Shown: positions 5,683-44,127 of the stretch, one piece after another
Position numbering within the stretch: position 1 is the first letter of the stretch
Layout of the letters: every line of letters starts with the position of its first letter
Assembly (NCBI RefSeq): GCF_002847525.1
Contig: NZ_PKKM01000010.1
Location: 63,071 to 108,640, forward strand
Origin: Schaalia odontolytica
GTDB lineage: Bacteria; Actinomycetota; Actinomycetes; Actinomycetales; Actinomycetaceae
DNA length: 45,570 nt
Reading direction: 5' to 3'
Notes under the pieces: model-generated
Seen by the model: the letters and a program-made list of their open reading frames with translations, nothing else
Told to the model about the DNA's origin: nothing
Databases searched by the model: none
Translations under genes and position numbers: made by a program

Positions 5683-6816
5683 GTGAGCACCCAAGCGCCC
5701 GACAAGAAGAAGACACCCCTCAAGTGGCGTCTCCTCACGATCGCGCCCCCGATCCTGCTGCTGGCCGGCATCCTGGTCCTCCTGTACCCCGTCTTCGCGA
5801 CCCAGTACAACAACGCGCGCCAGGAACGCATCGCCTCCGAATTCAGCGCCGTCGCTGACAACGCGGGCCCCGACGCCGTCGCCGAATCCCTGCGCCGCGC
5901 CGACGAATACAACCTCAAGGCCTCCGAGTCGCCCATCCTCGATCCCTGGCTGGACGCCCAGCGCCCCGGCACCGCCCAGTACCAGGACTACCTGAGCCAG
6001 CTCAACCTCAACGACGTCATGGCGACCATCAAGATCCCCTCGATCGACGTCAACCTGCCGATCTACCACGGCACCGACACCGCGACGCTCGACAAGGGCG
6101 TTGGCCACCTCTTCGGCACCGCCCTGCCCGTCGGCGGCGAATCCACGCACACGGTCCTCACCGGACACACCGGCCTGGGTAACGCGACCATGTTCGACCA
6201 GCTGACCAGCGTCAAGATGGGCGACTACTTCTACATCGAGACCGCCGGACGCCACCTCAAGTACCAGGTCACCGACATCCGCGTCGTCCTGCCCCACGAG
6301 ACCGAGTCCCTCAACAAGGTCGAGGGCAAGGATCTGGCCACCCTCATCACCTGTACGCCCTACGGCGTCAACACGCACCGCCTCCTCGTGACCGGCGAGC
6401 GCGTCCCCATGGACGAGGCAGCCGTCGCCGCCGAAGCCGCGCAGGTCAAGGGCTCCGTCATGAAGCCGTGGATGATCGCCGTCCTCGCGTCCGTCGCCGT
6501 CATCCTCCTCGTCGCCGGCATCCTCTGGCTGCGCTCCCGCAAGCGCAAGGACGAGGAGCCGCAGGAGGTCGAGGGTGCCGCCGCTGGCGCGCTCGCCTCG
6601 GCTGAGGCCGGGGACGAGGCCGGGGCTGAGTCCGCCGAGGCCGCTTCGTATTCCGCAGATGCGGCCGCCCCCGCTGAGGCCTCGACCGCCGCCTCCGAGG
6701 CGCCCGCCGCCACTCCGGACCTGCTGACGGACGCCGAGCAGATCTCCGAGGATGAGATCGACGCCGGCCGCACCGCCGCCCTCAAGAAGATGCTCGAGGA
6801 ACGCGGCAAGCAGTAA
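5683..6816 (+). CDS. srtC: Class C (pilus-polymerising) sortase
   Basis: Transpeptidase that joins pilin subunits through sorting signal and pilin lysine, acting at the outer membrane face. The GTG start at 5683 has GGAGA at 5674-5678; an ATG at 5668 would add five residues but lacks a binding site. From the GTG, 377 residues: N-terminal membrane helix, a DPW lid motif near residue 87 typical of class C, catalytic His162 (TGHTG), Cys224 (LITCTP) and Arg233 (NTHRLL), then a second membrane helix near 265-287. After it comes an unusually long, acidic, Ala/Glu-rich cytoplasmic tail of about 85 residues. Class C sortases normally end soon after the second helix. The gene lies between hairpins at 5569-5600 and 6853-6900. 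Confidence 0.93.
   Translation: MSTQAPDKKKTPLKWRLLTIAPPILLLAGILVLLYPVFATQYNNARQERIASEFSAVADNAGPDAVAESLRRADEYNLKASESPILDPWLDAQRPGTAQYQDYLSQLNLNDVMATIKIPSIDVNLPIYHGTDTATLDKGVGHLFGTALPVGGESTHTVLTGHTGLGNATMFDQLTSVKMGDYFYIETAGRHLKYQVTDIRVVLPHETESLNKVEGKDLATLITCTPYGVNTHRLLVTGERVPMDEAAVAAEAAQVKGSVMKPWMIAVLASVAVILLVAGILWLRSRKRKDEEPQEVEGAAAGALASAEAGDEAGAESAEAASYSADAAAPAEASTAASEAPAATPDLLTDAEQISEDEIDAGRTAALKKMLEERGKQ
6613..6625 (-). repeat. Dispersed 13-mer CCCCGGCCTCGTC, copy 1
   Basis: Exact copy inside the acidic tail of the sortase gene (encodes DEAGA). Extended match CTCAG before the word, as in copy 8. Confidence 0.7.
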
Positions 6817-6852
6817 GCACCTCCTTCGCGTGGCCCCTCGGGCCGCCTGACT

Positions 6853-6900
6853 CGCGGAAACGCGCGGACGAGCGAGCAAGCTCACCCGCGCGTTTCCGCG
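6853..6900 (+). terminator. Hairpin after the sortase gene
   Basis: CGCGGAAACGCGCGG (6853-6867) is matched perfectly by CCGCGCGTTTCCGCG (6886-6900), a 15-bp stem with an 18-base loop, 37 bases after the sortase stop. No T-run follows. It lies 48 bases before the second tip-like gene, which may therefore have its own promoter or depend on read-through. Confidence 0.7.
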
Positions 6901-6948
6901 CATCTACGCTAAAGTCAGTGAGTAACTGTCAAACAATCTGGAGGGCTT

Positions 6949-9549
6949 GTGGAGCATCACCCCAGCGGCGCACGCTCCCGCCGCGCCACGCACGCGAGGG
7001 CCGAGTCCCGGCCTCGTCGCACCGTCGCGCGTACCCTGGCCGCCCTCCTTGTCGCGAGCGCAGCTGCCTTCCCCGGCCTCGTCGTCCCTGATCGCGCCGA
7101 CGCAGACCCTGCGCTCGAGCCCCCCGGCGGGGGCACCGTCCCCGTCACCTCATCCGCCGGCCGCCTCGGCGCGGCCACCATTAACGGCTCGGGCTTCGAT
7201 CGCACGACGAACGTTCCCGACAACGCCTACGTCGGGACAGTACGCGGTGCCGGCCCCTTTGATGCGGCCGACCCCGCCCAGTCCTCGTCCCCCCTCCAGG
7301 TGGGAACCGCCCAGCCCATGCTGGACGCCGCCGTCGCCTCGGGCGACTACTGGACCTACATCGCGCGCGGCCTGCCCGCCGCCAACCCCGTCGCCACCGG
7401 CGTCATCTCGCCGCAGAACACCAACGCCCTGGGCTACAAGCCCAACAACCCAGGCGACGTCCCCATCGGCAAGCCCTTCCTGCTGGGCACCGTGCGACAC
7501 AACAACTTCCAGGTGCACTCGGCCAGCCAGTGGGTCCACTCGTCGATCGATGTCAGCATCGGCGGCATCGAGGACTCCTTCCCCTTCGACCAGGAGGAGA
7601 CCGAGGACGACACCGACACCACCGCGGCCCTCAGCGACGAGGGCGCCTACATGCTCGCCTCGCGCGCCAACGGCCCGAACTCCTGCCCCGCCAACGCGCC
7701 CTTCGCCGCCCTCAACCGCGACGCCGGACCGGGCGTCTGGTACTGCTACCGCCACGTCGGCAAGGGCCGAGGCAACCGCGACATCTACACGAACAACCCG
7801 GCCGCCTACCCCGACGCCGCGGGCACGCCCGACCAGAGCCCCAACTCCGATGATGTCCTGACGATCTCGCGGACCACCTCGAACAAGACCGTCATGATCG
7901 ACGGAATCCCGTACCGCCTCGTCATCGCCGGCTTCACCCCCAGCGGCGACGGCGCCTGCCCGGACACGCCGCCCGCGGGCGTTACCCCCGTGTCGACCTT
8001 CAGCTCGAAGGAAAACAAGACCTCCTACGGGTGCCTATACGCAACCTTCAGCCAGGAACGCTACATCCGCATCGCGAAGACCGTCACCCCGGAATCTGAG
8101 GCGATCGGCGGCAAGATCCCCTCCTTCAACTTCACGACGCTGGGCATCGGCGACTTCGTCTCGCCCACGGGCGAGCCCCTCAAGACCGCCGAGAACGCGG
8201 GTGGCTTCGTCGACTGGTCCTCCTTCGAGGACAGCCCCCTGACCCCCACGGGCTACGGCAAGGACGGCACTGTCCTCAGTGACTACCAGGCTTTCATCCC
8301 CGGCTACTCCCAGTTCGTCATCGCCGAGACCGGCCCGCGCATCCCCGGGCGCCGCCCCCTGCGCTTCGGCGAACCCGGCTACTTCGGCCCCTGGAAGGTC
8401 TCCGACGACCCGAACTCCGCTCGCTGGGAGCTCACTGACATTACGTGCGTGAACGGTATCGGCGAGGCCGTCAACGTCACCCGCGACCCCATGACCGGCG
8501 GCATCGACTTCTCCGACGTGCCCCCGGCCAAGACCGCGGCCGCCGTGCCCATCACCTGCAACTTCACGATTCAGCAGCAGGCCCCCAAGCTGCGCATCGA
8601 CAAGACCGTCGAAAGCGTCGAGGGCGCCTCCGGTGACACGATCATCATCACCTACCGCGTCACCGCCACGAACGACGGCACGATCGCGGGCACGACCGGC
8701 CGCCTCGTCGACACCCCGGCCTTTGCGCCCGGCCTCACCCTGCGCTCCGCGGCGATCGCCACCTCTCTCGATGGACTGCGCGGCGCCCGTGAACAGAACC
8801 GCGCCGCCACCTACGTCCTCACCCAGGGCACCACCGTGGAACCCGGAAAGTCCGCGACCTGGTTCATCCGCATGAAGGTCGCCCGCGACAAGGCCGCCGC
8901 CGGATACAGCGAGGCCGCCCTCGAGTGCGTCCCCTCGAACGGGCGCCTCACCCCCAAGCGCGGCCTCTACAACTCCGTCGCCGGCCCCTACGACCACGAC
9001 GGCGCCGCCAACAACGAGGCCTGCGCGCCCGCCCGCCCGCGCACCATCCGCATCGAAAAGGCCGGCACCCAGCCCGTCGGCACTGCCAACGAGGACGGCA
9101 CCTACCCGCTTGAGGGCGCCGCCTTCGCGATCTACGACAACGAGGCCCTGACCGGCACCCCCGTGTCCACCTCCGACGGCGAATCGCAGTTCGTCACCGC
9201 GCCCCTCGAGACCGGCAAGACCTACTGGCTCGTCGAGACCCGCGCCCCCGCCGGGCACGTCCTCCTGCCACGCGCCGTGCCCTTCCACATCGAGGTGGGC
9301 GCCGACGCCTCGGCCTCCACGGTGATCGCCACCGACTTCGGCGCCGACGAGGGCTTCACCTCCGTGCGCGTCATCCCCGCCGCGACGGGCACGGGCACCG
9401 CCGCGCTGCCCGCCATCCGCGTCGTCGACACCCAGGTCGGTGTCCTGCCCAACTCCGGCTCCTCGGGCATCTACCCCCACCTCGGCCTCGGCGCCGCCCT
9501 CCTCGGCCTCGCCGGAGCGTGCGCGTGGGTGCGCCGCCGCTCCGCCTAA
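6949..9549 (+). CDS. Fimbrial tip-like surface protein, wall-anchored (paralogue 2)
   Basis: Secreted, wall-anchored protein of 866 residues, clearly paralogous to the protein at 812-3847. Both have WTYIARG, KPNNPG, FLLG followed by RHNN, SFPF, a C-NGIGE block, QAPKLR and a C-terminal SpaA-like domain with YWLVETRAPAGH. The GTG start has GGAGGG a few bases upstream and leads into an Arg-rich signal peptide cut after about residue 52 (ADA). The sorting signal is LPNSG at 833-837, then a hydrophobic helix and VRRRSA; serine replaces threonine. The gene is the last of the cluster, after the sortase. Known Actinomyces fimbrial loci have one large tip gene before the pilin, so a second one here suggests an alternative tip on the same shaft or a separate wall adhesin. 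That role is inferred. Confidence 0.87.
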   Translation: MEHHPSGARSRRATHARAESRPRRTVARTLAALLVASAAAFPGLVVPDRADADPALEPPGGGTVPVTSSAGRLGAATINGSGFDRTTNVPDNAYVGTVRGAGPFDAADPAQSSSPLQVGTAQPMLDAAVASGDYWTYIARGLPAANPVATGVISPQNTNALGYKPNNPGDVPIGKPFLLGTVRHNNFQVHSASQWVHSSIDVSIGGIEDSFPFDQEETEDDTDTTAALSDEGAYMLASRANGPNSCPANAPFAALNRDAGPGVWYCYRHVGKGRGNRDIYTNNPAAYPDAAGTPDQSPNSDDVLTISRTTSNKTVMIDGIPYRLVIAGFTPSGDGACPDTPPAGVTPVSTFSSKENKTSYGCLYATFSQERYIRIAKTVTPESEAIGGKIPSFNFTTLGIGDFVSPTGEPLKTAENAGGFVDWSSFEDSPLTPTGYGKDGTVLSDYQAFIPGYSQFVIAETGPRIPGRRPLRFGEPGYFGPWKVSDDPNSARWELTDITCVNGIGEAVNVTRDPMTGGIDFSDVPPAKTAAAVPITCNFTIQQQAPKLRIDKTVESVEGASGDTIIITYRVTATNDGTIAGTTGRLVDTPAFAPGLTLRSAAIATSLDGLRGAREQNRAATYVLTQGTTVEPGKSATWFIRMKVARDKAAAGYSEAALECVPSNGRLTPKRGLYNSVAGPYDHDGAANNEACAPARPRTIRIEKAGTQPVGTANEDGTYPLEGAAFAIYDNEALTGTPVSTSDGESQFVTAPLETGKTYWLVETRAPAGHVLLPRAVPFHIEVGADASASTVIATDFGADEGFTSVRVIPAATGTGTAALPAIRVVDTQVGVLPNSGSSGIYPHLGLGAALLGLAGACAWVRRRSA
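7071..7083 (+). repeat. Dispersed 13-mer, copy 2
   Basis: Exact copy in the signal-peptide region of the second tip-like gene; a 12-of-13 copy lies 64 bases before it (7006-7018). Confidence 0.7.
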
Positions 9550-10414: not shown

Positions 10415-10427
10415 CCCCGGCCTCGTC
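10415..10427 (+). repeat. Dispersed 13-mer, copy 3
   Basis: Exact copy 7 bases after the nucleosidase stop; a partial copy (ACGGCCTCGTC) follows at 10434-10444. Confidence 0.7.
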
Positions 10428-10469
10428 CCCGCCACGGCCTCGTCCCGCCCCGAACGAACGGAAACGATC

Positions 10470-12404: not shown

Positions 12405-13745
12405 TCAGTCCGGCAGGGACGCTCCCGCCTCGGTGAGGAGAGTGCGGATCTGCTCCTCGACGCCCTTCGTGCCGCGGCCCATCGCGACCAGCTTGCCGTC
12501 CGCGCCCGCGATGAAGTGCGTCGGCCACGCCGTCGCGCCGTAAGCCTTGAAGGCCTCGAGGTCGGGGTCCAGAGCCACCGGGTAGGTGATGCCCAGCTTC
12601 TCGATCGACGCGTTCACGACCGAGGCGTCACGCTCGTAGGCCTGCTGGGGCGAGTGCACGCCCACGACGACCAGGCCGTAGTCCTTGTACTTCTCGTAGA
12701 TCGCCTCGAGCTCGGGGATCTCGCGCTGGCAGTTCGTGCACGAACTCGACCAGAAGTCCACGAGCGTCACCGTGCCGGACGGCTGGCCCAGGGAGTTGAG
12801 CCACTCCGAGGCCTGGAGCGTCGGCATGGCACCGCAATCCTTCGCGCCGCCTCGTGCGCACTGCGCGAAGTCGGTGCTCGCCTCGACCTCCTTCTCGGGC
12901 TCGCACGTGCCGTCCTCACAGGCGCCTTCAGTGCTGGCCTCGAGCGAGGCCGTGTAGTCGGGGATCATGCGCTGCAGCGCCATCGGGGCGTCCGTCGCGA
13001 TACCCAGCGCGAGCGCGATCATGGCCACGCCCGCGGCGATGCGCAGGGGGCGCTGGCGGGTCTTCAGGAAGCGGGCCGCGACGCCCGAACCGGCGATCGC
13101 GACGATCATCAGCGGGATCGACACGCCGATCGCGAAGGAGATGGCCAGGCCGATGATGTGCCACGTGATCTGCCCGGAGCTCGAGGCCACGATGATCGAG
13201 GTCAGCACAGGACCCGCGCACGGCACGAACGCCGCGCCCAGGACGAGGCCGAGGCCGAAGCCTGCGCTGTCGCCCGTCGTACGAGGTGCCAGGCGGGCGA
13301 AGGGGCGCTCGAGCACCTCCATGATCTTCGGGACGATCATGCCGATACCCACGGCCAGCAGCAGGATGATGCCGGTCCAGCGGATCAGTGCCTGCGGCAG
13401 GTTCAGCAGGCTCAGCAGCGCCGAACCCGCGACCGTGATGATCATGAACGAGGTGACGAGGCCCAGGACGATGAGCACGGGACGACGCGTCACCGACTCG
13501 CTGCCGTCGGCCTTCACGGCTGCCTTCTTCGGAGCTTCCCCGCCCAGGTTCACGCCCGGCGCGAGACGGAAGAGCGATGAATCAACGCCCGCCTTGCTTT
13601 CCTCAGAGGAACGTGCGGCCTCGTTCGAGGAGGATGCTGAGTCGCGGGAGCCAGCGGCTCCCAGGAAGAGTGCGGGTAGGACGGGAAGGATGCACGGGGA
13701 GATACCCGTGATGAAGCCACCAAGAAGGCCTAGCAAGAGGAACAT
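12405..13745 (-). CDS. CcdA/DsbD-like membrane protein fused to a thioredoxin domain
   Basis: Membrane thiol transporter fused to an extracellular thioredoxin-like (TlpA-type) domain, 446 residues; it should carry reducing power across the membrane for disulfide reduction. The CcdA part has the paired cysteine motifs SPCILPVLPALFLG (Cys18) and VPCAGPVL (Cys176) within about six membrane helices (residues 1-250), with a Ser/Ala-rich loop at 32-86. A Cys-containing linker (residues 270-305) leads to the thioredoxin domain with CTNC at 336-339 in WSSSCTNCQ and the cis-proline motif WPTHF. AAGGTG lies just before the ATG. Full-length fusions of this kind occur in actinobacteria. No cytochrome maturation genes are nearby, so the partner is unknown; pilin or other surface proteins are possible. 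Confidence 0.87.
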   Translation of the reverse strand: MFLLLGLLGGFITGISPCILPVLPALFLGAAGSRDSASSSNEAARSSEESKAGVDSSLFRLAPGVNLGGEAPKKAAVKADGSESVTRRPVLIVLGLVTSFMIITVAGSALLSLLNLPQALIRWTGIILLLAVGIGMIVPKIMEVLERPFARLAPRTTGDSAGFGLGLVLGAAFVPCAGPVLTSIIVASSSGQITWHIIGLAISFAIGVSIPLMIVAIAGSGVAARFLKTRQRPLRIAAGVAMIALALGIATDAPMALQRMIPDYTASLEASTEGACEDGTCEPEKEVEASTDFAQCARGGAKDCGAMPTLQASEWLNSLGQPSGTVTLVDFWSSSCTNCQREIPELEAIYEKYKDYGLVVVGVHSPQQAYERDASVVNASIEKLGITYPVALDPDLEAFKAYGATAWPTHFIAGADGKLVAMGRGTKGVEEQIRTLLTEAGASLPD

Positions 13746-13971: not shown

Positions 13972-14661
13972 CTACAGCGACAGGACCAGGTCCGCGCGCT
14001 CCTTCGTGCGATCGACGAGGGCCATGTTCGCCGCGTCCACCGTGCGCACCCAGTGCGCGGCGTCCGCGCGGTCCCGGCCGAAACTCACGTGGCGGTCGAT
14101 CAGGCGCGAGGCAAGCTCCTCGAAGGGCGTATCGATGAATACGAGCAGGTCGATGAGGCCGCGCACGTCCGCCCAGCCGGGCAGCTCGAGACCCAGGTAG
14201 TTGCCCTCCGTGATGACGACGCCGTCGACCTCGACGGGCAGAGAGGCGGCGACGGGCTCGTGCAGGTCGCGCCGGTAGTCGGGGGCGAGGACCACGCCGT
14301 CCGCGCGGCGCACGCGCCCCAGGAGAGCGACGTATCCGCCCACGTCGAAGGTGTCGGGCGCGCCCTTGTGGTCGGCGATCCCGCGCGCGGCCAGCACCGC
14401 GTTGGACATGTGGAAGCCATCCATGGGCGCCAGGCCAGCGACCGCGATGCCGGCCTCGGGCAGGGCGCGCGCCAGTTCGGCGGTGATCGTTGTCTTGCCG
14501 GTCCCGGGAGGGCCGGTCAGGCCCAGCACGCGCACGGGGTCACCGAGGCGGGCGCGCTCGGCCACGGCCTCGACGATGCGCCGGGTGATCGACGAGGCCT
14601 GGGCGCACTCAGGAGAGGCAGCAGCCGACTGCGGTCCTGAGCTCGCCCGTAAGGAAGTCAC
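13972..14661 (-). CDS. Uridine/pantothenate kinase-like P-loop kinase
   Basis: P-loop kinase of the uridine kinase/pantothenate kinase-like group, 229 residues. Walker A is GLTGPPGTGKTT at 47-58. MDGFHMSN and DTFDVGGY follow, typical of the FrcK/YggC-like 'nucleoside/nucleotide kinase' proteins, and then FIDTPFEELASRLIDRH. The start is taken as GTG at 14661, whose last two bases begin the TGA of the upstream phosphoribosyltransferase (GTGA), implying coupled translation; a start at 14721 would overlap that gene by 64 bases. The true substrate (sugar, nucleoside or pantothenate) cannot be read from sequence. Pairing with a purine-type phosphoribosyltransferase favours nucleoside or ribose metabolism. 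Confidence 0.8.
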   Translation of the reverse strand: MTSLRASSGPQSAAASPECAQASSITRRIVEAVAERARLGDPVRVLGLTGPPGTGKTTITAELARALPEAGIAVAGLAPMDGFHMSNAVLAARGIADHKGAPDTFDVGGYVALLGRVRRADGVVLAPDYRRDLHEPVAASLPVEVDGVVITEGNYLGLELPGWADVRGLIDLLVFIDTPFEELASRLIDRHVSFGRDRADAAHWVRTVDAANMALVDRTKERADLVLSL

Positions 14662-15830: not shown

Positions 15831-18800
15831 CGCGCCCCCGCGAGCACGCCGAGCAGGCGCTTCATGGAGACCTTGTTGGGCGTGCCCAGGGTCTGGGCGA
15901 ACATGGACACGCGCAGCTCCTCGGCCATCCACCGCGCCTGGGTGAGCGCGGCGTCTCGGCGGGCGTCGTAGGGCCGACGCTCCAGGGCCTCGCGCGTGGC
16001 GGCGATCTCGGCCTCGGCCTGGTGGATGCGGTCCATGTCCTCCAGGTCGCGGGCCAGTGCCCCCGGCGACGAGGCGGCGCGCTCGATGCGCACGGCCCCG
16101 GCGCGCAGGTAGCGGGCCAGGTGCGGCAGCGCGGAGGCGGGCGTCGCCGACACGAAACCCTCGTAGAGCAGGGTCTTCCCATGCGCCGCGACGTCGCGCG
16201 TCGTCTCTTCGAGCGAGGCCTGGGGGTGCGAGCGTACGGCGGCGTCGGCCTCGGCGCTGGCCTCCAGGGCACGCACGACGTGGGAGAGGATCTGGTAGAC
16301 GCGGTCCTCGTGGGTGTCGCGCGCGGCCGCCACGAGGGTCTCGAAGGCCTCGGGGTCGCGCACGTCGGCCGGTGTACTCAGCTCGTCCACGAGGGCGAGG
16401 GCCGAGGCCAGCTGCGCGTCCGCGACCAGGGCCGCCGTGTCCGCGTAGGGGGAGGCCGCGAGCATGAGGGCCTCGCGGCCCGTCCAGCGCGTGGTCACCC
16501 GGTTCGTCGCCAGGGCGACGCGGGAGAGCAGCAGGCGGGCGAGGCCGGCGCGGTGCTCGCGATCGGCCTCGGCGGCGCTGGCCATGACGCGCACGCCCGC
16601 AGCCGGGGCCGCGGCGCTGCCCTGGGGGACCAGGGCGGGGAAGGCCCGCAGCGTCATCGAGCCCGAGGTCTGCGTGATCGAGCGCGGCAGCGTCGGCATC
16701 TGCGTGACGCCGTCCGCGTGGAACGCCGGGTCCGGCGCTGGGGCCGAGGCCTGGGCGTCCTTTGGCGCGTGCGCGCCCCCGTTTGGGGCAGACTGCGCGC
16801 CCTTGGGGGTGGGGGAATCCTCCCCACCGCGCGCGGCGGCCTTCTCCGAGGCCCCGCGCCCGCGCTTGTTCCTGCGCGCCTGCTTCTCGCTGGCCTCCTC
16901 GAGGGCCGCGCGCACGGCCGTGCGCACCGCCTTGTTCGCGTCGCTGGCGAGGGATCGCTGCAGGTAGGCCAGGTCCTTGCCCGCGCCCAGCTCCTTGCCC
17001 GACGCGTCGGTGACGACGAAGGTCATGCGCAGGTGGTCGGGCAGGTGGGCGCGCGCGTGCGCCAGGTCCGCCTCGCTGAGGTCCACGCCGCGCAGGACGC
17101 GCACCGCGTGGGCGAGGGCCTCCAGGACGGGGCGCTCGGTGAGGGGGCGGGGCTTGGGCGCCTCGCTCGCGGCGGTCGCTTCGGGACCCTGAGTGGCCGG
17201 CGCCTGTGTGGGCGTCTCCTTCTGCGTGGCCTTCTTCGGTGCCTTCGCAGGGGAATTGCGCGTTGAGAGACGGCCGGAGGTCGCGCCCCACGCGGCCAGT
17301 CGGCCCATCGCGGCGTCCAGGCTCAGCGGGTCCGGCTCGTCGGAGTCGGCGGCCTTCGTCGCTTTCCCGGAGGACTTGTCCGCCGCTGACGCCACCACGG
17401 CCTCGACCGGCTCGTCGCCCGCCTGCTCGATCCAGCGAGCCACCGACGCGGCCACGTCCGGCGCGGGGGCCAGCAGGCGGCGCACGCCCTTGGGCAGCGC
17501 GCGGATCGCCTCGGTCAGCAGGTCCTCGCGCATGCCCGGCACCAGCCAGTCCGTGCCCGCGTCGCTCACGCGCTCGAGCACCTCGATCGGGATGCGCATC
17601 GACACGCCGTCACGCGGGCTGCCCGGCGCGAACTCGTAGCTCAGGGGCAGCGACAGGTCGCCGCACTGCCAACGATCCGGGAAGCCCTCGCCGGAGGTCG
17701 CCTCGCGCGGCATCAGCAGGGACGCCGGGTAAATCAGTAAGTCCGGGTGAGAGCGGCGCTCGTCCTTCCACCAGCGGTTGAACGCCGCCGCGCTGGTCAC
17801 GTGCTCGGGGATCAAATCGTCGAAGAAACGGAAGCGCGCCTGCTCGTCCGCGACGAGGCCGTGGGTGCGGCTACGGCGCTCAACCTCGCGAGCCTGCTCC
17901 ACCAGGGCCTCGTTTCGGCGCTGGAAACCGTGCCTCTCCCTCCACTGGCTATCCACCAGGGCGTTGCGAATGAACATCTCGCGGGCCAGCTCGCGGGCCG
18001 TCGTCCCCTCGCGCGCGGCCGCCAGCTCCTCGAAATGACGCGGCTCAAACGACCCCGACGACAGGGGATCCTTCGACGCCGACACCAACCCGGCCGCCAG
18101 CGCCTCCAGCGACCCCGCGCGCGGAGCGTGAGAGCGCGAGGCGGCCACGGCCTCGTCGATGACGAGATCCCCCAAGCGCCCCAGCAGCACCTCGCGGTCC
18201 GCCGCCAGCGTCAGCCCATAGAGGGTCACCCGCTCGCGGACCATCGCCGCGCCCTTCGCGACCGACCAGAACGGCTCCGAATACGAGCGCTTGAGCAGGC
18301 CGCGCGCCGCCGGCTCCACCCACTCCGGGCGAATGCGGGCCACCGTGCGTGCAAACAGGCGCGAGGTCTCCACGAGCTCCGCCGTCATCACCCAGGCGGG
18401 GTGCCCGCTCACGCCCGAACCCGGCCAGATCGTGAAGTGCGTGCCGCGCGCGCCCTCGTAGTCGCGCTTCGTCTCATCCCACGATCCCAGGTAGGACAGC
18501 AGGCCCACCAGCAGCGAGCGGTGCACCTGGTCCGCGTCCACGCTCGCCGTGCCCTGCCCGTAGGCCAGGACCGCGCGAACGGCCGCGTCCTGCGCGCCGC
18601 CGAACTGGGCGGCCTCCACGACGTCGCCCGTCGACGGCTCGCCCACCGGCCCCGCGGCGATCCCCAGCGCCCGGGCCATCTGGCGCAGCTGGCCGACCAC
18701 GTCGCGCCACTCGCGCCACCGCAGGTAGTGGAAAAACTCCGCGCGGCACATGCGCCGGAACGCCGAGCCCGACAGGTCGCGCGCCTGTACCGCCAGGTAG

Positions 18801-20677
18801 CGCCACAGGTTCAGGTACGTGATGAAGTCCGAATGCGGGTCCGCCAGGCGCGCGTGCGAGGCGTCCGCCGTGCCCTGATGCTCGGCCGGGCGCTCGCGCA
18901 CGTCCTGGATCGACAGCGCCGCCACGATGACGAGCACCTCCGAGGCGCAGCCCAGGCGCTCGGCCTCCAGGAGCATGCGCCCCAGGCGCGGGTCGATCGG
19001 CAGGCGCGCCAGGTCCCGGCCAATGCCGGTGAGCCTGTACTGGGACGAGGCCGGGGCCGCGTCCGCGCCCTCACGATCCTGCGCGAGCGCGCCGATCTCC
19101 ACCAGGAGGGCCACGCCGTCGCGCACCGCGCGCCGATCCGGGGCGTCCAGGAACGGGAAGTCCTCGACGGCGCCCAGGCCGAGGGACGCCATCTGCAAGA
19201 TGACGCTGGCCAGCGACGTGCGCAGGATTTCCGGCTCCGTGAAGCGCGGACGCGACAGGTAGTCGGCCTGCGAGAACAGGCGGATTGCCACGCCCTCCGC
19301 GACTCGTCCGCATCGGCCCGCGCGCTGGTTCGCGCTCGCCTGGCTGACCGGCTCGATCGGCAGGCGCTGTACCTTCGTCTTGTTGGAATAGCGGGAAATA
19401 CGCGCCAAACCCGGGTCGATGACGTAGCGGATGCCCGGCACCGTCAGTGACGTCTCCGCGACGTTCGTCGCCAGGACCACGCGGCGCAGGCGGTGCGGCT
19501 CGAACACGCGATGCTGCTCGGCCGCCGTCAGCCGCGCGTACAGCGGCAGGATCTCGATGTCTCCCGGACGCGCGCCCTTGTCGTCTCCCGCGCGCCGGCC
19601 TCGTCCCTTCAAGTGATCGAGGAGGGCCGCCTCCGTGTCGCGGATGTCGCGCTCGCCGGGCAGGAAGACCAGGATGTCGCCGTCGCCCTCCGCGCTCAGC
19701 TCGTCCACCGCGTGACAGATCGCGGTCTCCACATCGATGTCCTCGCCCATGCCGTAGCCCAGCGTCGCCAGCTCGTCGTCCGGGTCCTCCAAGACCAGCT
19801 GCATCGGGCCGGACTCGGTGACCTCGGTGGTCTCGATAATCTCGATGGGATCGTCCGCCTGCTTGCCGGAGGCCTCGGACGTGTACGACGAGGGCGTCGT
19901 CGGGCCGAGGGGACGGTAGCGGATCTCGACCGGGTAAGTGCGGCCCGACACCTCGATGACCGGCGCGGGCTCGATCAGGCGACCCGAACCGGGAGCGCCC
20001 TCCCACGTGCCGAAATGGCGCGCGAAACGATCCGAATCGATCGTCGCCGACGTGATGATGACCTTCAGGTCCGGGCGCGCGGGCAGCAGGCGCGCCACGT
20101 AGCCCAAGATGAAGTCGATGTTCAGGCTGCGCTCGTGGGCCTCGTCAATGATGAGCGTGTCGTAGCGGCGCAGCATCGGATCCGACTGAATCTCCGCCAG
20201 CAAGATGCCGTCCGTCATGAGCTTGACGAGGGTCGTGGGGCCGACCTCGTCCGTGAAACGCACCTGGTAGCCGACCACCTGGCCGCGCTCGCGGCCCACG
20301 GTCTGGCCCAGCTCGTCGGCGATGCGATCCGCGACCGAACGCGCCGCGAGCCTGCGCGGCTGGGTGTGCCCGATCATGCCGGCGACGCCGCGGCCCAGCT
20401 GCATGCAGATCTTCGGCAGCTGCGTCGTCTTGCCCGAGCCGGTCTCGCCCGACACGATGACCACCTGGTGGTCTCGGATGGCCTGGGCGATCTCATCGCG
20501 GCGGGCGCTCACCGGCAGATCCGGGAAGGAAATGACGGGGATTGCCGCGGCGCGCTCTGCTAGTTGCTCCGGCGTGAAAGGCTTGAATGGGCGCGCGTGC
20601 TCGCGGGGGCGCCTGCGTCCGGCGTTGCGCGGGCGCGGTTTGCGTGCTTTGGGCGTGGCGGAGCGAGAGTCAGGCAT
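15827..20677 (-). CDS. hrpA: ATP-dependent RNA helicase HrpA
   Basis: DEAH-box RNA helicase, 1616 residues. Walker A GETGSGKTT is at 77-85, DEAH at 178-181, then SAT (SATIDSDRF), a helicase C domain with the QRAGRCGR motif, HA2/OB domains and the long C-terminal region specific to HrpA. It is longer than E. coli HrpA (about 1300). The extra length lies mainly in acidic/Ala/Pro/Lys-rich linkers: one in the N-terminal helicase part (around EIIETTEVTESG), one near residues 1090-1170 and one near 1265-1330. In E. coli HrpA acts on stalled or collided ribosomes. No clear ribosome-binding site precedes the ATG. It is coupled to the SprT-like gene downstream. Two CCGGCCTCGTC-type words lie within it. 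Confidence 0.95.
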   Translation of the reverse strand: MPDSRSATPKARKPRPRNAGRRRPREHARPFKPFTPEQLAERAAAIPVISFPDLPVSARRDEIAQAIRDHQVVIVSGETGSGKTTQLPKICMQLGRGVAGMIGHTQPRRLAARSVADRIADELGQTVGRERGQVVGYQVRFTDEVGPTTLVKLMTDGILLAEIQSDPMLRRYDTLIIDEAHERSLNIDFILGYVARLLPARPDLKVIITSATIDSDRFARHFGTWEGAPGSGRLIEPAPVIEVSGRTYPVEIRYRPLGPTTPSSYTSEASGKQADDPIEIIETTEVTESGPMQLVLEDPDDELATLGYGMGEDIDVETAICHAVDELSAEGDGDILVFLPGERDIRDTEAALLDHLKGRGRRAGDDKGARPGDIEILPLYARLTAAEQHRVFEPHRLRRVVLATNVAETSLTVPGIRYVIDPGLARISRYSNKTKVQRLPIEPVSQASANQRAGRCGRVAEGVAIRLFSQADYLSRPRFTEPEILRTSLASVILQMASLGLGAVEDFPFLDAPDRRAVRDGVALLVEIGALAQDREGADAAPASSQYRLTGIGRDLARLPIDPRLGRMLLEAERLGCASEVLVIVAALSIQDVRERPAEHQGTADASHARLADPHSDFITYLNLWRYLAVQARDLSGSAFRRMCRAEFFHYLRWREWRDVVGQLRQMARALGIAAGPVGEPSTGDVVEAAQFGGAQDAAVRAVLAYGQGTASVDADQVHRSLLVGLLSYLGSWDETKRDYEGARGTHFTIWPGSGVSGHPAWVMTAELVETSRLFARTVARIRPEWVEPAARGLLKRSYSEPFWSVAKGAAMVRERVTLYGLTLAADREVLLGRLGDLVIDEAVAASRSHAPRAGSLEALAAGLVSASKDPLSSGSFEPRHFEELAAAREGTTARELAREMFIRNALVDSQWRERHGFQRRNEALVEQAREVERRSRTHGLVADEQARFRFFDDLIPEHVTSAAAFNRWWKDERRSHPDLLIYPASLLMPREATSGEGFPDRWQCGDLSLPLSYEFAPGSPRDGVSMRIPIEVLERVSDAGTDWLVPGMREDLLTEAIRALPKGVRRLLAPAPDVAASVARWIEQAGDEPVEAVVASAADKSSGKATKAADSDEPDPLSLDAAMGRLAAWGATSGRLSTRNSPAKAPKKATQKETPTQAPATQGPEATAASEAPKPRPLTERPVLEALAHAVRVLRGVDLSEADLAHARAHLPDHLRMTFVVTDASGKELGAGKDLAYLQRSLASDANKAVRTAVRAALEEASEKQARRNKRGRGASEKAAARGGEDSPTPKGAQSAPNGGAHAPKDAQASAPAPDPAFHADGVTQMPTLPRSITQTSGSMTLRAFPALVPQGSAAAPAAGVRVMASAAEADREHRAGLARLLLSRVALATNRVTTRWTGREALMLAASPYADTAALVADAQLASALALVDELSTPADVRDPEAFETLVAAARDTHEDRVYQILSHVVRALEASAEADAAVRSHPQASLEETTRDVAAHGKTLLYEGFVSATPASALPHLARYLRAGAVRIERAASSPGALARDLEDMDRIHQAEAEIAATREALERRPYDARRDAALTQARWMAEELRVSMFAQTLGTPNKVSMKRLLGVLAGAR
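19044..19056 (-). repeat. Dispersed 13-mer, copy 4
   Basis: Exact copy inside hrpA, in a variable stretch encoding APASS. An 11-base core copy lies in the same gene at 19595-19605 in the other direction. Confidence 0.7.
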
Positions 20678-33486: not shown

Positions 33487-33578
33487 GATGCCTTCTTCGT
33501 GTGTCGTGTCTGCGTTCGTGGGGCGGGGGCCTCGGGACGAGGCTGGGGCCGGCTCATCGGGGCGGGCGTTCGTCGCGC

Positions 33579-34780: not shown

Positions 34781-34782
34781 GC

Positions 34783-35085: not shown

Positions 35086-35100
35086 ACGTGTGTCAGTGGC

Positions 35101-37014
35101 TCACAGGTTGAGCTGGATGTTGCGGCCGGGGACGGCCTCGATCAGCTCGCGCGTGTAGTCCTGGACCGGGTTGTTGAACAGCTCGTCCGTCGAGTTGGCC
35201 TCGACGAGCTTGCCCTTCTCCATAACGATCACGTCGTCGGCGATCTGGCGGACAACGGCCAAGTCGTGCGTGATGAACAGGTAGGACAGGCCCAGCTGCG
35301 CCTGCAGGTCGTTGAGCAGGTACAGGATCTGGTTCTGCACCAGCACGTCGAGGGCGGACACGGCCTCGTCCAGGACGATGACCTCCGGGTTGAGCGCGAG
35401 GGCGCGGGCCACGGCCACGCGCTGGCGCTGGCCGCCGGAGAGCTCGTTCGGGTAGCGGCGCATGGCGCTACGCGGCAGGGCCACCATGTCGAGCAGCTCG
35501 GAAGCGCGCGCGATGCGCAGCTTCTTCGGGTTGAACTCACGCTTCTCGGCGGCCGTCAGCGAACGCTTCGCGTCGGCGGCCTCGACGAGGACGCGCATCC
35601 ACTCCTCGGGCTCGCGGCCCGTGGCCTCGGCGCGCTTGATTTCGGCGCGCGCGTACTCCAGGGTGCCGTAGCCGTGGATCTTCAGGGGTTCCTCGATCAG
35701 TCGGTAGATCGAGAACATGGGATCCAGCGAACCGTAGGGGTTCTGGAACACGGCCTGGAGGCGGCGACGCAGGCGGAAGAGCTCCGCCTCGCTCATCTGC
35801 GAGGTGTCCTCACCGTCAAAGTAGACCTTGCCCTTGGTGGGCTTGAGGAGCTGGAGCACCATGTTCGCGGCGGTGGACTTGCCGGAGCCGGACTCACCGA
35901 CGACCGCGAGGGTCGTGCCGCGACGCAGCTCGAAGGACACGTCGTCGACGGCCAGGAAGGTGTCCTGGCCCTTCTTGGCGCCGCGGATGTCGAATTCCTT
36001 GGTGAGGTTTTCGACGCGGATGATGGCGTCCGTGGAGGTCGAACCCTTGCCGGCGCCGACGAGCTCCTCGTCGGTGACCTTGATGCCCTGCTTGTGGGCG
36101 GACTCGATGCGCGCCGAGGCCAGGGAGGGCGCGGCGGACACGAGGCGCTTCGTGTAGGGGTGCTGGGGGTGCTGGAGGATCTCCAGGGCGGGGCCGGACT
36201 CGACGATGCGGCCGCGGTGCATGACGACGAGCTGCTCGGCGCGCTCGGCGGCCAGGCCGAGGTCGTGCGTAATGAACAGCACGGCGGTGCCCATCTCGGA
36301 GGTGAGCTTGCCGAGGTGGTCGAGGATGCGGCGCTGGACGGTCACGTCCAGGGCGGAGGTCGGCTCGTCGGCGATCAGCAGCTTGGGGTGCGCGGCCATG
36401 CCGATGGCGATAAGCGCGCGCTGGCGCATGCCGCCGGAGAACTCGTGCGGGTACTGCTTGGCGCGGCGTTCCGCGTCGGGCAGGCCGGCTTCCTCGAGGA
36501 GGGCGGTGACGCGCTGGCCGGCCTCGGAGCGGGGCACGACGTTGTTCGCGAGGAGGGCCTCCTTGACCTGCTTGCCCACGCGGAGCACGGGGTTGAGGTT
36601 ACTCATCGGGTCCTGGGGGACGAGGCCGATGCCGGATCCGCGCAGCTCCACCCACTGCTTGTTGGTCAGGTGGGTGATGTCGCGGCCGTCGAACTCGATC
36701 TTTCCGCCCGCGACCTTGCCGGTGCCGGGCAGCAGGCCGATGACGGCGGCGGCGGTCGTGGACTTACCGGAGCCGGACTCGCCGACGATGGCGACGGTCT
36801 GGCCGGGGTAGATCGTCAGGTTCGCGCCGCGCACGGCGGGGACGACGCCGGTCGAGGAGGTAAAGGTTACCTCCAGGTCCGTGATCTTGAGCAGGGGCTG
36901 CGCGTCGTCCGGGTGGATGTCGGACGAGGCCGGGGCCGCGCTGGGGGCGACGGCTCGTTCGACGATCTCTTCCATCTCCTTCTCGGAGAGCTGGGGGGTG
37001 TTCGTTTCGCTCAC
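35101..37014 (-). CDS. Oligopeptide ABC importer, fused double ATPase (OppD-OppF type)
   Basis: Fusion of two peptide-importer ATPases in one chain, 637 residues; these are separate (OppD, OppF) in many bacteria. First half: GESGSGKST at 78-86, FSGGMRQRALIA, IADEPTSALD. Second half: another GESGSGKST, LSGGQRQRVAVA, and VLDEAVSALD with Ala in place of the common Pro. The GTG start overlaps the TGA of the upstream permease gene (GTGA). The unit reads permease, permease, ATPase fusion and energises uptake of peptides delivered by the lipoprotein at 39202-40797. Confidence 0.94.
   Translation of the reverse strand: MSETNTPQLSEKEMEEIVERAVAPSAAPASSDIHPDDAQPLLKITDLEVTFTSSTGVVPAVRGANLTIYPGQTVAIVGESGSGKSTTAAAVIGLLPGTGKVAGGKIEFDGRDITHLTNKQWVELRGSGIGLVPQDPMSNLNPVLRVGKQVKEALLANNVVPRSEAGQRVTALLEEAGLPDAERRAKQYPHEFSGGMRQRALIAIGMAAHPKLLIADEPTSALDVTVQRRILDHLGKLTSEMGTAVLFITHDLGLAAERAEQLVVMHRGRIVESGPALEILQHPQHPYTKRLVSAAPSLASARIESAHKQGIKVTDEELVGAGKGSTSTDAIIRVENLTKEFDIRGAKKGQDTFLAVDDVSFELRRGTTLAVVGESGSGKSTAANMVLQLLKPTKGKVYFDGEDTSQMSEAELFRLRRRLQAVFQNPYGSLDPMFSIYRLIEEPLKIHGYGTLEYARAEIKRAEATGREPEEWMRVLVEAADAKRSLTAAEKREFNPKKLRIARASELLDMVALPRSAMRRYPNELSGGQRQRVAVARALALNPEVIVLDEAVSALDVLVQNQILYLLNDLQAQLGLSYLFITHDLAVVRQIADDVIVMEKGKLVEANSTDELFNNPVQDYTRELIEAVPGRNIQLNL
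36923..36935 (-). repeat. Dispersed 13-mer, copy 7
   Basis: Exact copy in the N-terminal linker of the double ATPase gene, again encoding APASS. Confidence 0.7.
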
Positions 37015-40993: not shown

Positions 40994-41006
40994 GACGAGG
41001 CCGGGG
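40994..41006 (-). repeat. Dispersed 13-mer, copy 8
   Basis: Exact copy, left arm of the terminator hairpin at 40993-41042. Confidence 0.75.
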
Positions 41007-41028
41007 CTGAGCGTGCGCACACACCCGG

Positions 41029-41041
41029 CCCCGGCCTCGTC
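41029..41041 (+). repeat. Dispersed 13-mer, copy 9
   Basis: Exact copy, right arm of the same hairpin, in inverted orientation to copy 8. Confidence 0.75.
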
Positions 41042-41058
41042 GAGTCGAGAAGCGAGAA

Positions 41059-41976
41059 TTAGGAAAGCAGGCCCTCGGAAATGAGCCAGTCGTGGGCGAT
41101 CTGAGAGGCGGACTTCTGCTCGACCGTCGACTCCCGGTTCATCTCGATGAGATCCTGCGCGTCCAACGCCTCGCTCACCCTGTTGATGACCGCGGTCGCG
41201 TCTTCGTTTACCCGCGACGAGGCCAGGGGCACCACGTGCGAGGCCAGGAACAGCCCCTTCGGGTCCGTCAGGACCGTCAGCGTTCCGTCCGCGAGCACCG
41301 GGTCGGATGAGTAGATGTTCGCGAGCTGGATGTCGCCGTCCTTCAGGGCCTTGACCGTGAGGGGGCCGCCCGAATCCTCGATCGGGGTGAAGTTGACGGT
41401 CACTCCGTAGAGGTCGGACAGTCCGGTCGGACCATAGGGACGCGTGCGCAGCTCCGAGTTGCCGCCGAGGGTGAGCGCGCCCGCGTTCGCGAGGTCGCCG
41501 ATCGACGTCAGTGAGTGGGCTTGCGCGAAGTCGGCCGTCACCACGTAAGAATCCTGGTCGGTCGCAGGTGCCTGCTCGAGGGCGCGCAGGCCCGAGGGGA
41601 GCGCGGTCTGCAGAGCTGAATACACCTCGTCCGTGGATCGCGCGGTCGCGTCAGCATCCAGGTACTGCAGCAGGTTGCCCGTGTACTCGGGGAAGACGTC
41701 GATCGAGCCGGCCTCAAGCTCGGGCATGTAGACCTCGCGCTGGCCGATCCGCATCTGGCGATCAACCGTGAAGCCTGCCCCTTCGAGCGCCTGCGCGTAG
41801 GCCTCCGCGATGATCTCGTTCGAGTAGTAGTCCTGCGAGCCGACGACGAGCGTCGTCGAGCCGTTCTCCGAACTCCCGGTGCTCGTGTTGCCGCCGACCG
41901 ACTCCGCCGAACCGCAGGCGGCCAGGGCCAGGGCGGAAGCCGCGACGGCAGCCATTGTGATCATCGTGCGTTTCAT
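41059..41976 (-). CDS. Osmoprotectant-type (glycine betaine/choline) binding lipoprotein
   Basis: Substrate-binding lipoprotein of the OpuAC/OpuCC type, 305 residues. Lipobox LAAC with Cys21; VGSQDYYSNEIIAEAYAQAL begins the mature fold, and SIDVFPEYTGNLLQYL is the typical substrate-site segment of quaternary-amine-binding proteins. Its ATG overlaps the permease stop (ATGA), and AAGGAGAC lies within the permease end. It is last in the operon MarR, ATPase, permease, permease, binding protein. Confidence 0.9.
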   Translation of the reverse strand: MKRTMITMAAVAASALALAACGSAESVGGNTSTGSSENGSTTLVVGSQDYYSNEIIAEAYAQALEGAGFTVDRQMRIGQREVYMPELEAGSIDVFPEYTGNLLQYLDADATARSTDEVYSALQTALPSGLRALEQAPATDQDSYVVTADFAQAHSLTSIGDLANAGALTLGGNSELRTRPYGPTGLSDLYGVTVNFTPIEDSGGPLTVKALKDGDIQLANIYSSDPVLADGTLTVLTDPKGLFLASHVVPLASSRVNEDATAVINRVSEALDAQDLIEMNRESTVEQKSASQIAHDWLISEGLLS

Positions 41977-42668
41977 AGTGTCTCCTTGAGTGAGTTGTCC
42001 TCATTGTCTGAGAAAGAATGGGTGCGGGCCCGAAGGCGTTGCGCCACCAGGGCCAGGAGCGCGTCGGTCACCAGCGCGAGGGCGACGACGATGATCGCGC
42101 CGCCGATCATCTCCGCGTAGTCGCGGGTCTTCAGCCCCTCGTAAAGGAAACGGCCGAGACCGTAGTTCGCCGTGTAGGCCGCCAGCGTCGTCGTCGCGAT
42201 CACCTGGAGGGTTGCCGAGCGTACGCCCGCCGCGACGAGGCCGGCCGCGTGCGGGGCCTCGACCTGCGCGAGGACCTGTTTTTCAGTGAGCCCAATCGCT
42301 CGCGCCGCGTCCACGGTCGCGCGCGGCGTCGAGGCGATCCCTGAGTAGGTCGCCGACAGGAGCGGCGGAATCGCCAGGATGAGGAGAGCCAGCGTGGGCG
42401 CCGCCAGTCCAATACCCAGCCATAGGCCCGCCAGCGTCAGGACGCCGAGCGTCGGAACCGCACGGGCCGCGCCCGTCGCGCTCACCAGCCATCGGCCCCT
42501 GCCCGTGTGCCCGATCCAGGTGCCCAGCGGCAGCGCGATGAGGGCCGCGAGCGCCACGATCAGGAGGGTGAGGCCCAGGTGCTCGGTAGCCCTCACGAGG
42601 ATCCCGGACTCGCCCAGCCAGTGGGCGGGGACCGCCAACCAATTCAGGGCGTCGAGGAGAATGTTCAT
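41973..42668 (-). CDS. Osmoprotectant ABC importer permease 2
   Basis: Permease of 231 residues, five to six helices, with the BPD-type coupling loop (AARAIGLTEKQVLAQVEAPHA). The ATG at 42668 overlaps the preceding permease stop (ATGA); a start at 42689 would overlap further. It forms the channel with the permease at 42665-43303. Confidence 0.92.
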   Translation of the reverse strand: MNILLDALNWLAVPAHWLGESGILVRATEHLGLTLLIVALAALIALPLGTWIGHTGRGRWLVSATGAARAVPTLGVLTLAGLWLGIGLAAPTLALLILAIPPLLSATYSGIASTPRATVDAARAIGLTEKQVLAQVEAPHAAGLVAAGVRSATLQVIATTTLAAYTANYGLGRFLYEGLKTRDYAEMIGGAIIVVALALVTDALLALVAQRLRARTHSFSDNEDNSLKETL

Positions 42669-43303
42669 GCCCGCCCCCTCCTCGTCCACGGAGTGAGGGT
42701 CCAGCCGATCCCCTGGATCAGCCCATCGATGACGAGCGCAAGGAGAACCGTCGCGACCAGGCCGGCCACGACCTCGGCGATGAGTCCGCGCTGAAAACCG
42801 TCAGTGAACAGCGTCCCCAGCGAGCGCACCCCGATGAACGCGCCCACCGTCACGAGCGACACCGTCGACGTGGCGACCACGCGCGTGCCCGCAACGATGA
42901 CGGGCGTCGCCAGGGGGAGCTCCACCTCGACGAAACGCCGAAAGAGCGGGTAGCCGCACGCGTTCGCGGCCTGCAGGGTCGCGCGAGGGATCGCGCGGAA
43001 GCCCTCCGCCACCTGGCGCACCAGCACCGCCACGCCGTACAGAGTCAGGACAATCACCATGTTGGCCGGCGAGCGCAGCGCCACCCCGACGATCACGGGA
43101 ATGACAATCAGGAGCGGCAGCGACGGCACCGCGTACAGCGCCGACAGGGCGGACAGGACCCAGCCGCCGCGGCGCGAAAACGCCGCCCAGCGCGCGATCG
43201 GCACGGAGAGCAGCACCGACAGTGCGATCGCTGGGAGGGCGATCCACAGGTGAGCAAGAGTCAGGGAGCCAATGAGCCCCCAGTTGGAGGACAGCCAGGT
43301 CAC
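42665..43303 (-). CDS. Osmoprotectant ABC importer permease 1
   Basis: Permease of 212 residues with the same BPD fold (coupling loop FRAIPRATLQAANACGYPLF). The GTG at 43303 overlaps the TGA of the ATPase gene (GTGA). A longer frame to 43603 runs through the ATPase gene and is rejected. The paired short permeases are the OpuCB/OpuCD arrangement. Confidence 0.92.
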   Translation of the reverse strand: MTWLSSNWGLIGSLTLAHLWIALPAIALSVLLSVPIARWAAFSRRGGWVLSALSALYAVPSLPLLIVIPVIVGVALRSPANMVIVLTLYGVAVLVRQVAEGFRAIPRATLQAANACGYPLFRRFVEVELPLATPVIVAGTRVVATSTVSLVTVGAFIGVRSLGTLFTDGFQRGLIAEVVAGLVATVLLALVIDGLIQGIGWTLTPWTRRGRA

Positions 43304-44127
43304 GGACGCTCCCCGGCCTCGTCGGTCGTCAGCGTGCCCACGGGGGTGCCGGCGTCGTCGACAACCAGGCCGCCCGGCCCGGCGACGCGCACCGGGCGTG
43401 CCGCGCGCGAGGCTCCGACGAACTCCGCAACGAAGGGCGAGGCGGGAGAGGAGAGCAGCTCGGTGGGCGTCCCCACCTGCTCGATGTGGCCACCCGTCGA
43501 GAGGACGGCAACCTGGTCGCCCAACGTGAACGCCTCGTCCACGTCGTGCGTCACGAAGAGGATCGTTGTGCCCAGCACCCGCTGAATCTCCTTCAGCTCG
43601 CACTGCAGCTCTGTGCGCACGATCGGATCCAGCGCGCCAAAGGGCTCGTCCATCAGCAGGATGTCCGCGCGATTGGCCAGCGCCCGAGCCACGCCCACGC
43701 GCTGACGCTGGCCGCCCGACAGCTGGGCGGGGTAGCGATCAGCCATCTCGCGATCCAGGCCCACCAGCTCGAGGAGCTCGAGCGCGCGCTCGCGGGAGGC
43801 ATGCTTCGTGGCGCCCTCCAGGCGCGGGACGGTCGCGATATTGTCGGCAATGCTTCGGTGGGGGAAGAGGCCGCCCTCCTGCAGGACGTAGCCGATCGAG
43901 CGGCGCAGGCGCACGGGGTCCTCGCCTGCGACGTCCTGGTCTCGTACGAATACCCTGCCCGAGGTTGGGGTGACCATCGCGTTCACCATCCGCATGAGCG
44001 TCGTCTTGCCGCAGCCCGAGGTGCCCAGGAAGACGGTCGTGGAACCCTGCTCGACGGTGAGGGAGAAGTCCTCGACGGCGCGTGTGCCGCCCGGGTAGGT
44101 CTTGGAGACGTGGTCGAAGCGAATCAT
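43300..44127 (-). CDS. Osmoprotectant ABC importer ATPase
   Basis: ATPase of 275 residues: Walker A GTSGCGKTT at 35-43, signature LSGGQRQRVGVARAL, Walker B LLMDEPFGALD, switch His in FVTHDVDEA. After residue 240 only a short tail remains (GLVVDDAGTPVGTLTTDE); the full tandem CBS sensor of OpuCA/ProV-type ATPases is missing, so ionic-strength sensing may be absent or done otherwise. Its ATG overlaps the MarR stop (ATGA). Confidence 0.92.
   Translation of the reverse strand: MIRFDHVSKTYPGGTRAVEDFSLTVEQGSTTVFLGTSGCGKTTLMRMVNAMVTPTSGRVFVRDQDVAGEDPVRLRRSIGYVLQEGGLFPHRSIADNIATVPRLEGATKHASRERALELLELVGLDREMADRYPAQLSGGQRQRVGVARALANRADILLMDEPFGALDPIVRTELQCELKEIQRVLGTTILFVTHDVDEAFTLGDQVAVLSTGGHIEQVGTPTELLSSPASPFVAEFVGASRAARPVRVAGPGGLVVDDAGTPVGTLTTDEAGERP
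43311..43323 (+). repeat. Dispersed 13-mer, copy 10
   Basis: Exact copy at the 3' end of the osmoprotectant ATPase gene (encodes DEAGE); an 11-base core copy lies at 42234-42244 in permease 2. Confidence 0.7.

Follow-up and report, generated by a model that had tools for sequence, protein, structure and literature searches.

The word CCCCGGCCTCGTC, 13 letters long, recurs throughout a 45,570-nt stretch of the genome of Schaalia odontolytica (contig NZ_PKKM01000010.1, positions 63,071 to 108,640; the whole stretch is called the window below). Its sequence characteristics indicate that it is probably a DNA uptake sequence (DUS), a mark of self-DNA, of the S. odontolytica group, and one member of a family of dialects with the core CGNCCTCGTC. 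Among the signs found are hundreds of copies, the lack of a strand bias, enrichment between genes, tolerated positions, close pairs in inverted orientation, dialects that differ by one base, and genes for competence. The window harbours ten exact copies and ten sites with one mismatch, 20 in all (Table 1), and 100 dinucleotide shuffles of the window averaged 0.36 matches with at most one mismatch and never exceeded 2. Once the words of a separate inverted-repeat element were set aside, the reverse complement, GACGAGGCCGGGG, had the highest z-score in the window among 13-letter words occurring at least five times.

The original prediction had reported the ten exact copies, three additional 11-base cores (7008, 19595, and 42234), and a near copy at 33536. 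All of them were recovered at those places, the last one as a one-mismatch copy. A chance expectation far below one had also been proposed for the 13-mer; the shuffles give 0.36 with one mismatch allowed. The peptides APASS, DEAGA, and PGLV are encoded by copies of the word as described, in three classes of frame and orientation.

The exact 13-mer was counted in 58 genomes (numbered with G), 35 from congeners and 23 from outside the genus, using as control the reversed word, which occurs 0-3 times per genome. Twelve of the 35 congeners possess 77-293 exact copies (G001 267, G011 181, G012 286, G013 244, G014 135, G016 77, G021 251, G024 293, G026 167, G029 223, G032 79, and G035 244), the other 23 possess 0-31, and the genomes outside the genus 0-13. 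In G001, the nearest compared genome to the window (30% of sampled 31-letter words), there are 267 exact copies versus one of the reversed word, and 814 versus 19 with at most one mismatch. Exact copies in genomes known by name were 223 in S. odontolytica FDAARGOS_732, 293 in HPA0247, 251 in ORNL0103, 267 in 352_XCEL, 244 in 250_SKED, 181 in A. bouchesdurhonensis, 31 in Pauljensenia hongkongensis, 4 in Naasia aerilata, and 5 in Nocardia bovistercoris. The first seven of these are probably G-numbered assemblies, since their strand counts are equal, and they provide names, not independent evidence. A protein of the window shares 89-95% identity with its counterparts in Schaalia odontolytica FDAARGOS_732, Actinomyces sp. 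HPA0247, and Schaalia sp. ORNL0103; two strains catalogued under different names fall in the same range. Xylanimonas cellulosilytica 352_XCEL and Sanguibacter keddieii 250_SKED (L141 and L144) look like Schaalia, with 89-91% protein identity, and their DNA matches the window at 92-95% identity across some 7-10 kb. Their strand counts of the word equal those of G001, and of G013 and G035, respectively. A plasmid search with window positions 30000-45000 found no record covering 80%, and the matches listed cover at most 4%. A scan of viral contigs with the word plus a leading G found at least 120 stretches, and was uninformative, the 80 listed having one copy each. Phage Av-1 has no copies of the word, which is weak evidence because the 7-letter core is also missing and its G+C is 49.5%.

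Composition and codon use do not account for these numbers. The window plus 21 stretches of G001 (465,570 bases) contain 65 exact copies versus 0.94 expected by an order-5 Markov model. Genes were called with a simple codon-based caller made for this analysis, which is not a standard annotation. After shuffling synonymous codons of the called genes, 33 copies were observed versus 1.4 in G001 (largest 5 of 100 shuffles), and 20 versus 1.3 in G012 (largest 5), that is, about 15- to 24-fold above the shuffled genes. The excess anticipated by the original prediction thus holds under both models. Nor are the copies confined to one repeat family or one reading frame: their flanks are unrelated, and genic copies lie in either orientation and mainly fall into three classes of orientation and frame. 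Near-random flanks surround the 65 exact copies, the exceptions being G at -1 (75%), C at -12 (62%), and A at -6 (48%). Substitutions of one base are frequent at position 3 (A 24, T 12), at position 4 (A 8, G 6), and at position 13 (T 12, G 5); position 12 accounts for eight. Positions 5-11 are rigid, the 21 possible changes totalling 13 copies, and the six changes at positions 1-2 total seven. The consensus is (G)CC[C/a/t][C/a/g]GGCCTCGT[C/t]. The rigid core, the tolerant positions, and the near-random flanks therefore correspond to the profile of a recognised motif, and not of a duplicated element. The word is real, clade-specific, and selected or kept by drive.

Enrichment between genes, also part of the original prediction, was not significant in the window alone, where four of ten exact copies are intergenic versus 17% non-coding space by our gene calls (p=0.07). 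It was clear in larger samples of relatives, with 22/55 copies (40%) versus 19% of the space in G001 (p=2e-4), and 27/47 (57%) versus 18% in G012 (p=9e-10), a 2- to 3-fold enrichment. In the intergenic DNA of G001 (82 kb), CGGCCTCGT is the top 9-letter word, with 64 occurrences versus 1.3 expected, and parts of the 13-mer are the top words of 8 to 12 letters. In intergenic DNA of G012 the top words belong instead to an array-like repeat, possibly CRISPR, found in stretches L100-L119 (words such as CTCATCCCCGCT and ACGCGGGGAAAA, ~85 copies in the intergenic DNA of the 400-kb sample). Intergenic repeat words, such as GAAGTCCGCTC and TCCGCTCTGTT, also occur in the 220-kb sample of G015 (L087, L120-L129), at about 20-30 copies. 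These rankings cover sampled stretches.

The word shows no strand bias in G012. Across 20 stretches of this genome, the origin of which was not located, the exact word was counted 19+/28-, and the degenerate motif 55+/60- (31+/37- in the first ten stretches, 24+/23- in the last ten). The exact word is present in 18 of the 20 stretches and the degenerate motif in all of them. In stretches of G015 the decamer CGCCCTCGTC was counted 27+/45-, though 620/625 genome-wide. The 258 sites taken from G001, G012, and the window include 23 inverted and 3 tandem close pairs (<80 bases), compared with 3.5 and 3.4 under random placement (largest 11 inverted in 1000 placements). Part of the closeness of the pairs, not their orientation, may stem from the null, because it places sites over whole stretches and is not confined to intergenic DNA.

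In several other congeners the preferred form of the core CGNCCTCGTC differs by one base. These dialects vary at one position of a shared decamer, which is base 6 of the 13-mer. Whole-genome counts are given below as CGGCCTCGTC (G form)/CGCCCTCGTC (C form)/CGTCCTCGTC (T form); the CGA form was not counted genome-wide. The G form leads in G001 (680/124/147), G012 (732/132/127), and G018 (188/11/19), the C form in G015 (187/1245/355), G019 (178/997/355), G004 (37/286/92), and G030 (67/508/139), and the T form in G006 (186/127/593). The low-G+C congeners G018, G020, G025, and G027 favour CGGCCTCGTC (141-188 versus 6-19 for the C and T forms), and their longer word could not be defined. Reversed decamers are a weak control, since genomes of other genera, such as G053 (466/507/687 versus 70-129), exceed them several-fold for codon reasons. 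Codon use does not explain the lead of the favoured form. In coding DNA of G015 the CGC form occurs 55 times versus 15.7 in codon shuffles (largest 24), and the CGT form 21 versus 13.9; in G017 the numbers are 47 versus 12.4 (largest 24), and 32 versus 18.6. Intergenic DNA of G017 contains CCGCCCTCGTC 15 times versus 0.09 expected. The intergenic share of CGCCCTCGTC is 22/69 in G017 (p=0.002), and 17/72 in G015 (p=0.37, not significant). Dialects are strongly supported for the odontolytica group's G form and well supported for the C form; for the T form the support comes from the counts of one genome, G006.

The word is absent from the neighbour genus G036 (4/6/3) and from congener G033 (9/3/16). 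G033 (G+C 49.5% in the sample, all three decamer forms missing, ComEC present) is a possible natural loss. Its word CCTGAGGCAAAGG was considered as a further dialect and dropped, since its count stayed at 6 from 60 kb to 140 kb of G033, as in a local repeat. The DEAD/DEAH-box helicase of the window, which we take to be HrpA-like, was searched in 33 genomes (32 of the 35 congeners, and G036). Nine congeners with a helicase at least 89% identical in each main piece (G001, G012, G013, G021, G024, G026, G029, G032, and G035) all carry 79-293 copies of the 13-mer. In a ComEC tree of 14 of the 35 congeners with G036 as outgroup, the six rows of the odontolytica group form one clade (100/100); some of its reading frames start too early, and only 2 of 12 inner branches are starred.

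Comparison with related species had been proposed as a check, and there the word is kept locally in part, with clade-specific counts. The copy at 36923 is exact in L140, L141, L142, L143, and L149, has one change in L144, and is not retained in L145. The arm at 40994 is exact in L140-L143, with T as last base in L144 and L149, and the arm at 41029 is exact in L141, L142, and L149, and changed in L140, L143, and L144. The copy at 43311 is exact in L140, L142, L143, and L144, and not retained in L145. Among aligned relatives, 7/12 intergenic words are unchanged versus 15/68 neighbouring 13-mers (p=0.015), and 16/22 coding words versus 53/150 (p=0.002). Eight of the 12 intergenic cases are the single pair of the window against four relatives (four of eight unchanged). 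The cases are not independent, therefore this retention is suggestive only.

Genes for competence are widespread in the genus. ComEC is encoded by 33 of the 35 congeners; completeness is 70% and 88% in the two genomes without it. Of 24 congeners, 23 possess a ComEA-type HHH domain, each time no more than about 2 kb from ComEC, and in G001 the ComEA and ComEC reading frames overlap by 4 bases. T2SSF is present in all 24, in one below the family cut-off, mostly as two adjacent matches and another at a third place; a single match was seen in each of G018, G020, and G023. The third place in G012 harbours T2SSE, T2SSF, DUF4244, a TadE-like protein (just under the cut-off), and Tad families. ComEC, ComEA, and a type-IV-filament protein occur together in every examined congener that is at least 90% complete. 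The word on outside DNA would be bound by ComEA or by a receptor at the surface of a Flp/Tad-type competence filament, and ComEA/ComEC would then import one strand. Uptake would therefore favour DNA of kin, and as fragments with the word recombine again and again, it would accumulate at tolerated places (intergenic DNA, linkers, and gene ends). On balance, these sequence data make it somewhat more likely than not that this actinobacterial (Gram-positive) genus evolved uptake sequences independently, with a Flp/Tad-type filament or ComEA as reader, and with one-base dialects that partly close or open the DNA of oral neighbours.

Several results weigh against reading the word as an uptake sequence. 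The original prediction had seen in it the pattern of such sequences, and the sequence-level signs are mostly present; depletion in atypical genes, in turn, gave no support, with 29 sites in the most codon-atypical quarter of genes versus 2.8 in shuffles. The exact copies (77-293) and the leading decamer in clear cases (141-1245) are below most published DUS counts, which are 943-5918 decamers in the excerpts available of PMC3630211. None of the 35 congeners has PilM, a part of the classical type IV pilus, and no receptor for the word was identified, no search aimed at receptors having been made. G033 possesses ComEC without the word. No clear preference is seen in several congeners (G002 145/148/108, G007 184/141/140, G009 495/532/538), and in a small sample of G009 no decamer form stands out from codon shuffles. 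Codon use accounts for part of the decamer counts, and all four forms are somewhat above shuffles in some genomes (CGA in G017, 23 versus 8.9, largest 16). The C-form decamer lacks the excess of inverted pairs (3 inverted, 4 tandem; 141 sites in G015 and G017). G014 and G016 hold the 13-mer (135 and 77 copies) yet fall outside the main clade, and are labelled C by their decamers (CGCCCTCGTC 1012 and 649). G025 (146/6/13) and G031 (84/8/22) favour the G decamer and lie outside the G-form clade of the ComEC tree, where they are unlabelled. From these four placements, the 13-mer marks a single clade, though not without exceptions, and the G decamer extends further. The mixture in G014 and G016 may reflect DNA exchange or a second dialect; Simonsiella is reported with two dialects in the excerpts of PMC3630211. 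Among the matches listed from the open-access literature, we found no uptake experiment in the genus, and no report of an uptake word in this group, the accessible part of PMC10633639 included.

Two alternatives had been named in the original prediction, and neither is favoured by the data. A Chi-like signal would be read by a helicase-nuclease that processes DNA ends, and Chi words are over-represented, non-palindromic, and clade-specific, as this word is. Yet the RecC family, which was detected in E. coli and 5 of the 14 genomes from other genera, is absent from all 24 congeners (AddAB/AdnAB-type enzymes were not searched), strand polarity is missing in G012, and the copies lie preferentially between genes and in inverted pairs, so that this role is quite unlikely. 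The occurrence of the exact word across the G012 chromosome would suit a binding site of a chromosome-organising protein of the parS, matS, KOPS, or nucleoid-protein type. Such sites are palindromic, polar, or regional, however, and the 20 stretches of G012 revealed neither polarity of orientation nor regional clustering, while in genes the word falls in several strand and frame classes; we regard a chromosome-organising or -orienting function as similarly unlikely.

The word contains GGCC and is abundant in and between genes, which would fit a maintenance word preserved by a DNA methyltransferase or by biased repair, like HIP1 of cyanobacteria, described in the available part of PMC4390886 as an abundant word linked to methyltransferases. 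Against this, it has 13 letters, is not palindromic, and has positions that tolerate change, and neither an excess of inverted pairs nor one-base dialects would be expected, so we consider this explanation improbable. A hairpin terminator or small mobile repeat deserves hardly any weight: the inverted pair of the window does fold strongly (-47.1 kcal/mol, z -5.9) immediately beyond the stop codon of the called gene 41059-41955, but no T-run follows it, at most 46 of the 258 sites are in close inverted pairs, and the flanks of the copies are unrelated. The uptake-sequence reading is preferred because it covers placement, pairs, dialects, and machinery together better than these rivals.

Table 1. 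Sites of the 13-mer and elements of a second repeat family in the window
Feature	Position	Strand	Context
Exact 13-mer	6613..6625	-	inside sortase gene, DEAG frame
One-mismatch copy TCCCGGCCTCGTC	7006..7018	+	
Exact 13-mer	7071..7083	+	near start of SpaA-domain protein gene, PGLV frame
Exact 13-mer	10415..10427	+	intergenic
One-mismatch copy CCACGGCCTCGTC	10432..10444	+	tandem with 10415 copy
One-mismatch copy	13242..13254	-	within gene
One-mismatch copy	14591..14603	-	intergenic
One-mismatch copy	17852..17864	-	within DEAD/DEAH-box helicase gene
One-mismatch copy	18145..18157	+	same helicase gene
Exact 13-mer	19044..19056	-	same helicase gene, APASS frame
One-mismatch copy CGCCGGCCTCGTC	19593..19605	+	
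Exact 13-mer	21985..21997	+	intergenic
One-mismatch copy	24445..24457	-	within gene
Exact 13-mer	26465..26477	+	PfkB-family gene, DEAGA frame
One-mismatch copy CCCCAGCCTCGTC	33536..33548	-	aligned site in relative L142 is the exact 13-mer
Exact 13-mer	36923..36935	-	near start of ABC-transporter ATPase gene
Inverted pair, two exact copies	40994..41041	.	between two genes; 15-bp stem topped by 7-bp stem (single-strand fold)
Exact 13-mer	40994..41006	-	left arm of intergenic inverted pair
Exact 13-mer	41029..41041	+	right arm of inverted pair
One-mismatch copy CCCTGGCCTCGTC	41216..41228	-	
11-base core CCGGCCTCGTC	42234..42244	-	
Exact 13-mer	43311..43323	+	3' end of gene
Second-family element	67-170		
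Second-family element	209-289		
Second-family element	11094-11197		
Second-family element	12209-12312		
Second-family element	13836-13939		
Second-family element	20764-20866		
Second-family element	24864-24966		
Second-family single end	34486		

The window also encodes a sortase-assembled pilus cluster at 896-9549, with SpaA and pilin D1 domains and sortase. The second repeat family consists of inverted-end elements, mostly of about 104 bases, with CGCATGCAATTCC at their ends. Ends of the same kind in G001 carry CACGTAATT where the window has CATGCAATT, hence the end sequence varies from one close strain to another; the G001 form is also present at three of the window's ends.

To our knowledge, uptake sequences are known from only two Gram-negative families. 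If the reading is true, a case in Actinomycetota without a PilM-type pilus would mean that the marking of self-DNA arose repeatedly, using different machinery. Gene flow among oral Schaalia and Actinomyces could then be approached directly, and bacteria with few genetic tools would become accessible in practice. The one-base dialects render the specificity of a receptor testable.

Excerpts of PMC3630211 describe the DUS of Neisseriaceae as dialects with an invariant core that follow phylogeny, prefer intergenic and permissive places, and form inverted pairs. What the two systems have in common, as far as these excerpts go, is a short word without a palindrome, copied hundreds to thousands of times, with inverted pairs, a bias to sites between genes, and dialects of one to few bases. 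The Schaalia word differs in its unrelated letters, in mostly fewer copies, in belonging to Actinomycetota, and in the lack of a PilM-type type IV pilus; the receptor of the Neisseria DUS is ComP, whereas the Schaalia reader is a candidate only. The uptake signal sequence of Pasteurellaceae is flanked by A/T tracts. No such tracts lie beside the Schaalia word, which is unrelated in sequence and comes from a different phylum; what it shares with the signal is the character of a self-DNA word, there of a family with natural competence (PMC12616744 and PMC7811141, in the parts available). With Chi the word shares over-representation and the lack of a palindrome, but Schaalia has no RecC, and the word has no strand polarity and an intergenic bias. 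In Micrococcus luteus, transformation depends on Flp/Tad, with two tad clusters and ComEA/ComEC and no other type IV pilus genes, according to the accessible text of PMC4322843, in which the term 'uptake sequence' does not occur. Schaalia resembles this arrangement in possessing ComEA-ComEC, one cluster of DUF4244, TadE, T2SSE, and T2SSF in G012, and, in most examined congeners, a separate adjacent T2SSF pair.

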